Translations under genes and position numbers: made by a program
Source: Arthrobacter sp. EPSL27
Lineage (GTDB): Bacteria > Actinomycetota > Actinomycetes > Actinomycetales > Micrococcaceae
Direction of reading: 5' to 3'
DNA length: 64,000 nucleotides
NCBI RefSeq assembly: GCF_001512305.1
Contig: NZ_LNUT01000005.1
Location: forward strand, 189,090-253,089
Notes under the pieces: model-generated
What the model was told of the DNA's origin: nothing
Seen by the model: the letters and a program-made list of their open reading frames with translations, nothing else
Database searches by the model: none
Part shown: one piece after another, positions 19,113 to 47,466 of the stretch
Layout of the letters: each line of letters starts with the position of its first letter
Numbering within the stretch: position 1 is the first letter of the stretch

Positions 19113-19139
19113 CTGGCACTCGCCTTGACCGAGTGCTAA
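19113..19139. promoter_or_regulatory. CIRCE operator 1 (HrcA site), groESL
   Basis: CTGGCACTC, 9 nt, GAGTGCTAA. The right half is perfect and the left has two mismatches to TTAGCACTC. The -35 hexamer of the groES promoter lies in the spacer. Confidence 0.8.
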
Positions 19140-19159: not shown

Positions 19160-19186
19160 TTAGCACTCTCCCTAGGAGGGTGCTAA
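19160..19186. promoter_or_regulatory. CIRCE operator 2 (HrcA site), groESL
   Basis: TTAGCACTC, 9 nt, GGGTGCTAA: one mismatch to the canonical CIRCE inverted repeat. It overlaps the predicted transcription start, as expected for HrcA repression. Confidence 0.92.
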
Positions 19187-19294
19187 CACCTGAAGCTTTG
19201 CAGCCAGGCTGCTGCCGGCACCGCGACGACGGTCTGCATGCCTTGGCGCCACCGCTTTAAAGTCCACGAATTTGCTGACGAAAAGGAGAGGTCC

Positions 19295-19591
19295 TTGTCG
19301 GTCTCTATTAAGCCTCTTGAGGATCGTATTGTTGTCCGCCCGCTCGAAGCCGAGCAGACCACGGCTTCCGGCCTGGTTATCCCGGACTCCGCACAGGAGA
19401 AGCCGCAGGAAGGCGAAGTTGTCGCAGTAGGCCCCGGCCGCTTCGACGACAACGGCAACCGCGTTCCGGTCGACGTCACTGTCGGCGACGTTGTCATCTA
19501 CTCCAAGTACGGCGGAACTGAAGTCAAGACCGGCGGCACCGAGTACCTCGTGCTGTCCGCCCGCGACGTCCTGGCGATCGTCGTAAAGTAA
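19295..19591 (+). CDS. groES: co-chaperonin GroES
   Basis: A 98-residue heptameric lid of the GroEL chaperonin. The sequence [20 protein letters not shown] begins at a TTG codon with AAAGGAGAGG upstream. The open frame extends 19 codons further, but that part is non-homologous and overlaps the leader. The mobile loop is [17 protein letters not shown], and the core block is [15 protein letters not shown]. It is transcribed from the CIRCE-controlled promoter, with a leader of about 135 nt. Confidence 0.97.
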
Positions 19592-19655: not shown

Positions 19656-21278
<1,623 letters not shown>

Positions 21279-45412: not shown

Positions 45413-45667
45413 CTAGCTTGCCGAGGACGCGGCCGCGGGAGCCGGGGTCGTGGCGGGGGCCGGAGCCGGGGAAACTGTGCTGCCCTTGGAATCGCGGGAG
45501 TCGGTCCGGTAGAAACCGGAGCCCTTGAAGACGACGCCGACGCTGTTGAACTTCTTGCGCAGGGTCCCCTGGCATTCGGGGCAGGTCGTGAGGGAGCTGT
45601 CGCTGAACGACTGCACGATCTCGAAGGCGTGGCTGCAGTCCTTGCAGGCATATGCATACGTGGGCAC
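45413..45667 (-). CDS. ruc: FmdB-family zinc ribbon protein, Ruc-like redox-regulated chaperone
   Basis: 84 residues. The zinc ribbon PTYAYACKDCSHAFEIVQSF...TCPECQGTLRKKF has two CxxC pairs. Then comes the conserved NSVGVVFKGSGFYRTDSR and a disordered Ser/Pro/Ala tail. The start is GTG with AGGAGG upstream. The match in domain layout, CIRCE control and position beside 5-FCL and galU points to the orthologue of mycobacterial Rv0991c (Ruc). Ruc is a heat-shock protein that prevents aggregation when its cysteines are oxidised. The functional transfer is inference from orthology. Confidence 0.88.
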   Translation of the reverse strand: MPTYAYACKDCSHAFEIVQSFSDSSLTTCPECQGTLRKKFNSVGVVFKGSGFYRTDSRDSKGSTVSPAPAPATTPAPAAASSAS

Positions 45668-45753
45668 TGGAAATCCTCCTTGGGGCAAACGAGCAGGTCC
45701 CGGGCTGTCCGGTCCGGGTCAGCGCCGGGATGTCTCCCGAACCAATCCGTCCC

Positions 45754-45780
45754 TTAGCAGTCGCAGGGCCTGAGTGCTAA
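45754..45780. promoter_or_regulatory. CIRCE operator (HrcA site) upstream of ruc
   Basis: TTAGCAGTC, 9 nt, GAGTGCTAA: one mismatch to the CIRCE consensus. It directly abuts the -10 box of the ruc promoter, so HrcA would block transcription start. Confidence 0.88.
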
Positions 45781-45785
45781 TTCTA
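45780..45785 (-). promoter_or_regulatory. -10 box of ruc
   Basis: TAGAAT on the minus strand. It overlaps the outer base of the CIRCE by one nucleotide, and the predicted start lies inside the operator. Confidence 0.6.
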
Positions 45786-45812
45786 TCACCCCGGCAGTGC
45801 GGCCCTTGATGG

Positions 45813-46445
45813 CTACCCGACCTGCAGCCGCACCAGACCGCCCGGGGTCAGGGCGGCCGCCACCTTCTTGTCGAAGGACTCTGCTGGGATGCTCCCGCCG
45901 GGCAGCACCTCGCCGTCGTACACGACGGCGGCGGTGGGCAGCGGAGGCAACGTCCCGCCGTCGGGCGCAGGGGAGGGCAGGAGGGCGGACAGCGCCGCCA
46001 GGAACTTGTCGTAGTACCCGCCGCCCTGGCCGATGCGGTTTCCGGTCAGGTCTATGGCGGTGGCGGGGAGGATGATGCCGTTGGCGTCCCGCATGACGGC
46101 TGTCCCGTGGCGCGGCCCCTCCGGCTCCTGGATGGGGGCGTAGCGGCTCCGGGCAAAGCCGGACGCGGGTGTCCAGTACACCCAGCTCAGCGCCAGCTCC
46201 GGCTCGCAGACCGGCAGCAGAATCCGGTGGCCGGCGTCATGCAGCGCCGCCAGCAGGGGAAGGGTGGGCGGCTCGGAGCCCACGCCGAGGTAGGCGGCGA
46301 AGGTGCCGGGCTTCCCGCCCGTCAGGCCGGAGGCCCACGCCAGGCCGTGCCGTGCGATACCCGCCCCGGCGCTGTCCAGCGCGGCGCGGGTCAACGCCGC
46401 GCGCCCCGCCCGGTGCCCGGCGCGGATCTCTTCCTTGGACGCCAT
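45813..46445 (-). CDS. 5-formyltetrahydrofolate cyclo-ligase
   Basis: A 210-residue ATP-dependent enzyme that recycles 5-formyl-THF to 5,10-methenyl-THF. The signature GNRIGQGGGYYDKFLA lies near residue 133. The N-terminal basic helix MASKEEIRAGHRAGRAAL and LLPVCEPELALSWVYW are typical. AAGGA precedes the ATG. It is transcribed toward ruc and divergent from galU, the same order as in mycobacteria (5-FCL between ruc and galU). Together with fhs it belongs to one-carbon metabolism. Confidence 0.92.
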   Translation of the reverse strand: MASKEEIRAGHRAGRAALTRAALDSAGAGIARHGLAWASGLTGGKPGTFAAYLGVGSEPPTLPLLAALHDAGHRILLPVCEPELALSWVYWTPASGFARSRYAPIQEPEGPRHGTAVMRDANGIILPATAIDLTGNRIGQGGGYYDKFLAALSALLPSPAPDGGTLPPLPTAAVVYDGEVLPGGSIPAESFDKKVAAALTPGGLVRLQVG

Positions 46446-46548: not shown

Positions 46549-47466
46549 GTGACTACACCCAACGCTCCCGTCCGCAAGGCCGTCATTCCCGCAGCCGGCC
46601 TCGGCACCAGGTTCCTGCCGGCCACCAAGGCCATGCCCAAGGAAATGCTTCCCGTCGTCGACAAGCCCGCCATCCAGTACGTGGTGGAGGAAGCCGTTAA
46701 CGTCGGCCTGAATGACATCCTGATGATCACCGGGCGCAACAAGCGCGCCCTGGAGGACCACTTCGACCGCGTTCCCACGCTGGAAGCCACCCTTGAGGCC
46801 AAGGGCGATACGGCCAAGCTCGAGTCCATCCAGGCCGCCAGCAACCTGGGCGACATCCACTACGTGCGCCAGGGCGACCCCATGGGACTGGGCCACGCCG
46901 TCCTCCGCGCCAAACAGCACGTGGGCTACGAGCCGTTTGCCGTCCTCCTCGGCGATGACCTCATTGACGCCCGCGACGAGCTGCTGAGCACCATGATCGA
47001 GGTCCAGGCGAAGACCGGCGGATCCGTCGTCGCCCTCATCGAGGTCGACCCCTCCCAGATCAGCGCCTACGGCTGCGCCGCCGTCAAGGACGTCGAGGGT
47101 GAGGACTACGTCCGCATCGACCACCTGGTGGAGAAGCCCGACGCCAAGGACGCCCCGTCCAACCTGGCCGTGATCGGCCGCTACGTCCTCCACCCGGCCG
47201 TCTTCGACGTCCTGGAACGCACCGCCCCCGGCCGTGGCGGCGAAATCCAGCTGACGGACGCCCTGCAGGAGCTCGCGGCAGGCGACGGCGAAGGCCACGG
47301 CGTGTACGGCGTGGTCTTCCGCGGCCGCCGCTATGACACCGGCGACAAGCTCAGCTACCTCAAGGCCTGCGTGCAGCTCGCCTGCGACAGCGAAGACCTC
47401 GGCCCCGGCCTCCGGGAATGGCTGCCCGAGTTCGCCTCCAGCCTCGCGCCCAGCCTGACCAAGTAA
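46549..47466 (+). CDS. galU: UTP--glucose-1-phosphate uridylyltransferase
   Basis: A 305-residue enzyme that makes UDP-glucose from UTP and glucose 1-phosphate for cell-wall polymers and glycosylation. The nucleotidyltransferase motif KAVIPAAGLGTRFLPATKAMPKEMLPVVDKP is complete. Later blocks are QGDPMGLGHAVL, VLLGDDLID and the Lys-containing IDHLVEKPD. It starts at GTG with no ribosome site. The rimJ-like gene follows after 5 nt, so the two are cotranscribed. Confidence 0.96.
   Translation: MTTPNAPVRKAVIPAAGLGTRFLPATKAMPKEMLPVVDKPAIQYVVEEAVNVGLNDILMITGRNKRALEDHFDRVPTLEATLEAKGDTAKLESIQAASNLGDIHYVRQGDPMGLGHAVLRAKQHVGYEPFAVLLGDDLIDARDELLSTMIEVQAKTGGSVVALIEVDPSQISAYGCAAVKDVEGEDYVRIDHLVEKPDAKDAPSNLAVIGRYVLHPAVFDVLERTAPGRGGEIQLTDALQELAAGDGEGHGVYGVVFRGRRYDTGDKLSYLKACVQLACDSEDLGPGLREWLPEFASSLAPSLTK

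Follow-up and report, generated by a model that had tools for sequence, protein, structure and literature searches.

The ruc locus

The window (the whole stretch of 64,000 nucleotides of Arthrobacter sp. EPSL27 DNA that was analysed) carries on its minus strand ruc, a gene for a protein of the FmdB family, with a 5-formyltetrahydrofolate cyclo-ligase (5-FCL) gene upstream of it and galU, in divergent orientation, beyond (Table 1). The ruc product scored 58.9 bits against PF09723 (Zn_ribbon_8, cut-off 34.4) and 68.5 bits against TIGR02605 (FmdB zinc ribbon, cut-off 31.3), in agreement with the small zinc-ribbon gene proposed by the sequence-only reading that was followed up here. The 5-FCL product remained just below the cut-off of TIGR02727 (83.1 bits, cut-off 84.9), and the gene downstream of ruc codes for RcpC/CpaB and SAF Pfam domains, below the CpaB equivalog cut-off.

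Upstream of ruc we identified a CIRCE element, an inverted repeat of the form TTAGCACTC-N9-GAGTGCTAA, which is present as TTAGCAGTC-GCAGGGCCT-GAGTGCTAA, with a central N9 and 17 of the 18 arm bases; the deviating base changes GAG to GAC on the gene strand. The −10 hexamer of ruc, read on the minus strand from 45785 to 45780, ends on the first CIRCE base of the gene strand, and by this overlap the CIRCE sits on the promoter of a putative stress gene. The sequence-only reading had placed a CIRCE on the promoter of an FmdB zinc-ribbon gene, abutting a TAGAAT −10 box; the element (one mismatch, none in shuffles) and the box were both found, but the two overlap by one base rather than abut. By eye, the −35 region is weak. 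The promoter is sigma-70-like, with no SigH-type GGAAY-N17–19-GTT motif at the CIRCE. At 86 nt, the leader that follows the CIRCE is a long one (9–95 nt, median 28, across the 117 CIRCE-bearing ruc promoters described below).

Table 1. Features of the window discussed in the text
Feature	Position	Strand	Basis or remark
CIRCE copy 1 upstream of groES-groEL	19113..19139	.	2 mismatches
CIRCE copy 2 upstream of groES-groEL	19160..19186	.	1 mismatch
groES, TTG start picked by eye	19295..19591	+	listed ORF starts at 19238
groEL of the groES operon	19668..21278	+	ORF; 71% in an alignment to the second groEL (L001)
ruc, FmdB-family zinc-ribbon protein, 84 aa, GTG start	45413..45667 (stop included)	-	PF09723, TIGR02605
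ruc ribosome-binding site AGGAGG	45675..45680	-	sequence
CIRCE, proposed HrcA operator of ruc	45754..45780	.	1 arm mismatch; shuffle and reversed controls; conservation
Extended −10 box TGATAGAAT of ruc	45780..45788	-	sequence; TAnnnT edge in relatives
5-FCL gene, syntenic neighbour	45813..46445	-	PF01812 above cut-off
galU, divergent syntenic neighbour	46549..47466	+	TIGR01099 above cut-off

CIRCE sites across the genome

At up to three mismatches, CIRCE was matched three times in the 64-kb window and not once in 100 shuffles. A scan of the genome (4.18 Mb, same threshold), which had been suggested as a check, recovered six CIRCEs at four loci, namely groES-groEL (two copies), a second groEL (two copies; L001, named GroEL by NCBIfam), hrcA (L004) and ruc, with no match for the reversed pattern. 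HrcA is encoded in the same genome (G000:C5:555043-556035, above the TIGR00331 cut-off), behind a CIRCE of its own. With sites at 19113, 19160 and 45754, ruc is a predicted second target of HrcA in the window, as had been claimed, next to groESL. The operators at groESL and ruc share the palindrome, the genome and the presumed repressor; however, the two groESL copies flank their promoter (by eye), whereas the single copy at ruc overlaps the −10 box. When the groES of the window was used as query, matches beside CIRCEs were also found in other genomes.

In the available text of PMC8557902, the HrcA targets of M. tuberculosis are groEL2, groES-groEL1, rv0991c-rv0990c and hrcA-dnaJ2. Judged by sequence, the four CIRCE loci of the Arthrobacter genome are these same four HrcA operons.

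Conservation of the proposed operator at ruc

Loci containing ruc were fetched from draws of genomes at the levels of order, class and phylum, and the 200 nt ahead of each gene were scored for their best CIRCE match, a site being called at up to four mismatches. This threshold was chosen after a two-peaked distribution had been seen, and places G143 (five mismatches) and G204 (six) among the negatives. One match per genome was retained for the counts. Loci without a start recognised by the regular expression were left out (L338, L351, L355, L357, L363, L365 and L367), and five phylum-draw genomes with no other locus were so excluded (G078, G016, G091, G039 and G055); G262 of the order draw, with a weak match only, also stands outside the counts.

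A CIRCE precedes 110 of the 156 ruc genes from Actinomycetes (two genome draws) and occurs in at least one member of 42 of 50 families: 40/71 ruc genes have it in the order draw (72 of 79 genomes gave a match), and 70/85 among class-draw genomes from other orders. In the other classes of the phylum, seven of the 64 ruc genes scored carried it, these 64 being the best-scoring, plus a hand-picked spread of families, of 131 out-of-class genomes with a match. The regulation had been proposed to be conserved across distant actinobacteria; it extends more widely than was guessed, but is not universal, as 46/156 genes are without the site.

Other FmdB paralogues served as controls, and CIRCE was found at 0/20 of them (7–10 mismatches); 19 came from genomes with the site at ruc and one from G218, which is without it. 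On the evidence of these paralogues, CIRCE as a general property of FmdB genes was rejected. Among 2,920 background windows, three contained a CIRCE at up to four mismatches, all of them exact. In three loci of family f82, CIRCE lies beside groES, 2.0–3.4 kb upstream of ruc, and we take the three exact background sites to be these.

A pattern linking CIRCE to an FmdB start, which picks up 55 of the 117 known positives and none of the 103 negatives, matched at least 119 stretches across the collection. Among the matches listed, by NCBI rank, 94 belong to Actinomycetes, eight to Acidimicrobiia, five to other Actinomycetota and seven to Chloroflexota, with one each from Armatimonadota, Rifleibacteriota, Bacillota, Myxococcota and an unranked source. 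Five of the seven listed Chloroflexota sites are exact; in a Chloroflexota draw the linked pattern occurred in 2/301 genomes, both already known, so the sites seem to be sporadic there. The Myxococcales site (L181, five mismatches) was rejected as probably due to chance. We also noticed that the Bacillota locus (L109, in a record titled Sporosarcina beigongshangi) encodes an Arthrobacter-like Ruc between flanks rich in G+C; from the protein and the base composition, it is probably a contamination of that assembly. HrcA was above the cut-off in 11 of the 13 genomes behind chosen out-of-class loci, the 13 including the suspect L109.

In the congeners G008 and G254 the site and its TAGAA edge are kept while the flanking sequences diverge, and in a family-weighted profile CIRCE arm positions 4–6 and 22–24 are invariant. 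On a tree made from Ruc only (about 60 residues, 156 rows), CIRCE changes state 16 times, where none of 200 shuffles needed fewer than 33 changes; because the alignment is so short, this tree is not to be read as a history.

These data bear on whether the palindrome might be a chance or decayed site, functionless in the Arthrobacter genome. The deviating arm base, and the loss of the site in several families, would fit such a relic; nevertheless, the absence of comparable matches in the shuffles, the persistence of site and edge in the two congeners despite the divergence around them, and the TAnnnT edge in 4/4 Pseudarthrobacter and 13/14 Arthrobacter loci (matches listed for the linked pattern) make it extremely improbable. 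A palindrome arisen by chance was itself rejected on the shuffles, the reversed control and the conservation.

Loss of the site

We found hrcA in 77/79 genomes of the order draw and 93/98 of the class draw, and it was detected in 108 of the 110 site-bearing genomes of these two draws. Of the 46 CIRCE-less Actinomycetes ruc genes, 45 lie in genomes that keep hrcA, so the site at ruc is dispensable. The exception is G286, of the window's own family: hrcA is absent, no CIRCE was found anywhere in its genome at up to three mismatches, and its ruc is likewise without one. In this single observed instance, site and repressor are lost together. As a cause of the loss of the ruc site, loss of hrcA holds for this genome only. 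Replacement of CIRCE by a SigH-type box or an HspR site was likewise rejected for the 46 genes, none of which has a SigH-type box in its 200 nt, the best match to the HspR site (HAIR) having at least four mismatches of 14.

The behaviour of G286 also speaks to the idea that CIRCE works chiefly at the RNA level, as a hairpin in the leader of ruc that affects message stability or translation, with HrcA in a minor role. Transcription starting about 7 nt past the −10 box would indeed place part of CIRCE in the transcript; yet the 9-nt loop and the arms are kept as the HrcA consensus (with the invariant positions given above) and not as just any hairpin, and in G286 hrcA, all CIRCEs and the ruc site have disappeared together. 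We regard this alternative as very improbable.

Two families stood out in the draws. In f81 (order draw; G235, G250, G265, G281 and G296), none of the five genomes has a TIGR02605 match, yet all five keep hrcA and three to six CIRCEs at up to three mismatches, a picture of ruc lost and the HrcA regulon kept. In f71 (class draw; G170, G186, G201, G215 and G228), with genomes of 1.3–1.4 Mb, CIRCE was found at ruc in 0/5, and hrcA matched its model in two blocks (about 1–130 and 225–336) in a frame of about 250 residues, as if some 100 residues of the middle were missing.

Promoter geometry and sigma factor type

A TAnnnT hexamer ends on CIRCE base 1, as in the window, in 57 of the 117 CIRCE-bearing ruc promoters. 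Other offsets up to base 2 account for at most three promoters each, and eight hexamers end at +22, within CIRCE; between −4 and +3 the total is 64/117, where shuffled upstream letters would give 7.5. The family-weighted profile of this edge box has T (0.45) or C (0.44) at position 1 and A (0.82) at position 2, so many of the remaining promoters look like CAnnnT.

A second promoter type, with a SigH/SigR-type GGAA[TCA]-N17–19-GTT box at the CIRCE edge, was observed in 15 of the 117 promoters (0.28 expected). It is found in families f5 (Mycobacterium, 5/5), f4 (5/5; genomes of 7–9.7 Mb) and f96 (3/4), and once each in f86 and f94. Among the matches listed for named genera, the box is present in 11/13 Mycobacterium and 3/3 Sinomonas loci, and in 0/14 Arthrobacter and 0/4 Pseudarthrobacter loci. 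Read from these motifs, the operator at ruc stays while the sigma factor changes between lineages.

For M. tuberculosis, the consulted part of PMC4803200 gives GGAAYR-N17–18-GTT as the SigH consensus and has Rv0991c in a table of SigH-dependent genes, and that of PMC7448276 describes induction of ruc by SigH from a site that overlaps the HrcA site. As far as these sources and PMC8557902 describe it, the M. tuberculosis promoter resembles that of the window in being an HrcA target, in belonging to a four-locus set and in serving an orthologous gene, but differs in that SigH drives ruc there, while the window has the sigma-70-like TGATAGAAT and no SigH box. The genome of the window encodes SigH (above the family cut-off), with a GGAAT-N18-GTT box 263 nt upstream of the match; lack of the sigma factor therefore does not explain why ruc has no such box.

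Gene neighbourhood

The window shares its arrangement of ruc, 5-FCL and divergent galU with loci of Mycobacterium (L082, L162), Mycolicibacter (L112), Rhodococcus (L184) and Dietzia (L094), and the proposed position of mycobacterial Ruc beside 5-FCL and galU is borne out by the two Mycobacterium loci. Among the matches listed of the at least 119 scan loci, many of which are incomplete, 75 contain 5-FCL, 69 galU and 60 both. The sequence-only reading had taken both synteny and regulation to be conserved. The gene order is indeed kept in distant loci, but the two are separable: in the draws, 5-FCL accompanies 52/110 loci with CIRCE and 33/46 without, so neighbourhood and operator are kept independently, and synteny as the reason for the common regulation was rejected.

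The Ruc protein and a model of its regulation

Cysteines 8, 11, 29 and 32 of the window Ruc form a CxxC-N17-CxxC zinc ribbon and correspond in position to those that were mutated in the M. tuberculosis protein, with which the window Ruc also has the FKGSGFYRTDSR motif in common; over the first 58 residues, 41 are identical with four mycobacterial Ruc proteins. The tail of 29 residues, one of them hydrophobic, is short and rich in alanine and proline, not in serine. In an AlphaFold2 model, of which only the outline counts (mean pLDDT 66), strands span residues 3–8, 14–18 and 35–39, with no element and low confidence past residue 40; model and composition together point to a disordered, hydrophilic C-terminal tail. 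No relatives were found in the PDB at E ≤ 1.

Control of Rv0991c (Ruc) by HrcA, claimed at the outset, is documented in the available parts of PMC7448276 and PMC8557902. According to the former, an hrcA mutant of M. tuberculosis has high Ruc at 37 °C, and the protein binds a single zinc, is active in the oxidised state, depends on its tail and works with DnaK; variants with cysteine replaced by serine are active when reduced, without oxidation. The same text likens Ruc to Hsp33, which has four zinc-binding cysteines and is activated by oxidation; past the cysteines, however, it reports no sequence similarity between them, and Ruc is not a member of that family.

By analogy with this protein, we propose that ruc has two gates, heat at transcription and oxidation at the protein. 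At normal temperature, an HrcA dimer on CIRCE would cover the −10 box and the start region of the sigma-70-type promoter and keep RNA polymerase off ruc. Heat or misfolded protein would inactivate HrcA, and ruc would be derepressed along with hrcA and both groEL loci. Its protein, with a four-cysteine zinc ribbon and disordered tail, would be a holdase, which may become active when oxidation removes the zinc. The observations comprise the sequence elements and how they are arranged, CIRCEs at four loci, an hrcA gene in the genome and a conserved operator; that in the window species HrcA binds, heat induces ruc and the protein acts as a chaperone is what we infer. We consider it highly probable that 45754-45780 is a working operator of a heat-derepressed ruc coding for an oxidation-activated holdase. 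Weighing against this are the deviating arm base, the weak −35 region, the long leader and the 45 Actinomycetes genomes that keep hrcA but have no site at ruc.

It is possible, though unlikely, that HrcA controls the gene while the FmdB protein meets another need in heat, e.g. zinc handling, rather than acting as a redox chaperone. The M. tuberculosis protein is the only one assayed in the literature found, and the tail of the window protein, being short and Ala/Pro-rich instead of Ser-rich, could be taken to favour this; against it stand the common cysteine positions, motif and disordered tail, the identity with mycobacterial Ruc over the first 58 residues and an operator common to ruc and the chaperonins. 

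HrcA control of Ruc was already known in M. tuberculosis. Our literature search, with subscription papers and regulon databases such as RegPrecise outside its scope and an earlier listing in these possible, found no paper joining HrcA and CIRCE with FmdB or a zinc ribbon, and none joining the FmdB family with heat shock and HrcA. COG2331 was absent among the literature matches listed (best 15 of 27), and for HrcA with ruc only PMC7448276 was recognised as on topic among those listed. For Bifidobacterium, the part of PMC9004370 available lists CIRCE only at groEL, groES and hrcA.

A cysteine-free branch and other CIRCE-linked genes

In family f26, which belongs outside Actinomycetes and is taken as Ilumatobacteraceae, a CIRCE lies 13 nt upstream of a gene for a cysteine-free Ruc-like protein (L018:1501-1870, genome G091), which is 30/62 identical with the window Ruc (E 2e-17 in a single comparison) and below the cut-offs of the FmdB and zinc-ribbon families. 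Homologues are present in 136 of 150 f26 genomes, from 25 of 27 genera. We inspected 30 loci (L403–L432), the best-scoring of the 136 and thus biased towards the L018 query: all are free of cysteine throughout, 19 have a CIRCE at up to four mismatches and 11 have none. One f26 genome, G113, has a single CIRCE at up to two mismatches, away from its Ruc homologue. A TIGR02605 search of six f26 genomes found nothing in G113 and G123, a weak match in G069 and a single match in each of G031, G091 and G145, which means that some members of the family keep another FmdB-type gene.

Because the Cys-to-Ser M. tuberculosis variants described in the accessible text of PMC7448276 act unoxidised, the cysteine-free proteins, if they are chaperones, would need no oxidation. 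By this analogy we lean slightly towards the view that HrcA control of Ruc has outlived the redox switch in f26, where the cysteine-free Ruc may be constitutive holdases gated by HrcA alone.

Two further CIRCE-linked loci of family f5 adjoin, by eye, an Hsp20-like small heat-shock gene (L028:980-1426 and L029:1595-2023, with CIRCE at 1501 in each), possibly a further HrcA target in mycobacterial relatives. In the same family, an exact CIRCE (L026:1501-1527, G038) has no GroES, GroEL or HrcA within the locus.

Implications

In the literature found, Ruc has been studied in one pathogen. Its operator in 42 of the 50 sampled Actinomycetes families, and in some Acidimicrobiia, places Ruc in the core HrcA chaperone regulon and opens it to study in strains that are harmless. 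A fixed operator combined with either a sigma-70-like or a SigH/SigR-like promoter offers a clean case of how the responses of a gene to heat and to thiol stress can be coupled or kept apart. If the reading of f26 is true, transcriptional and redox control would have come apart naturally in that family. With the cysteine-free branch, the purpose of the zinc switch can be tested directly.
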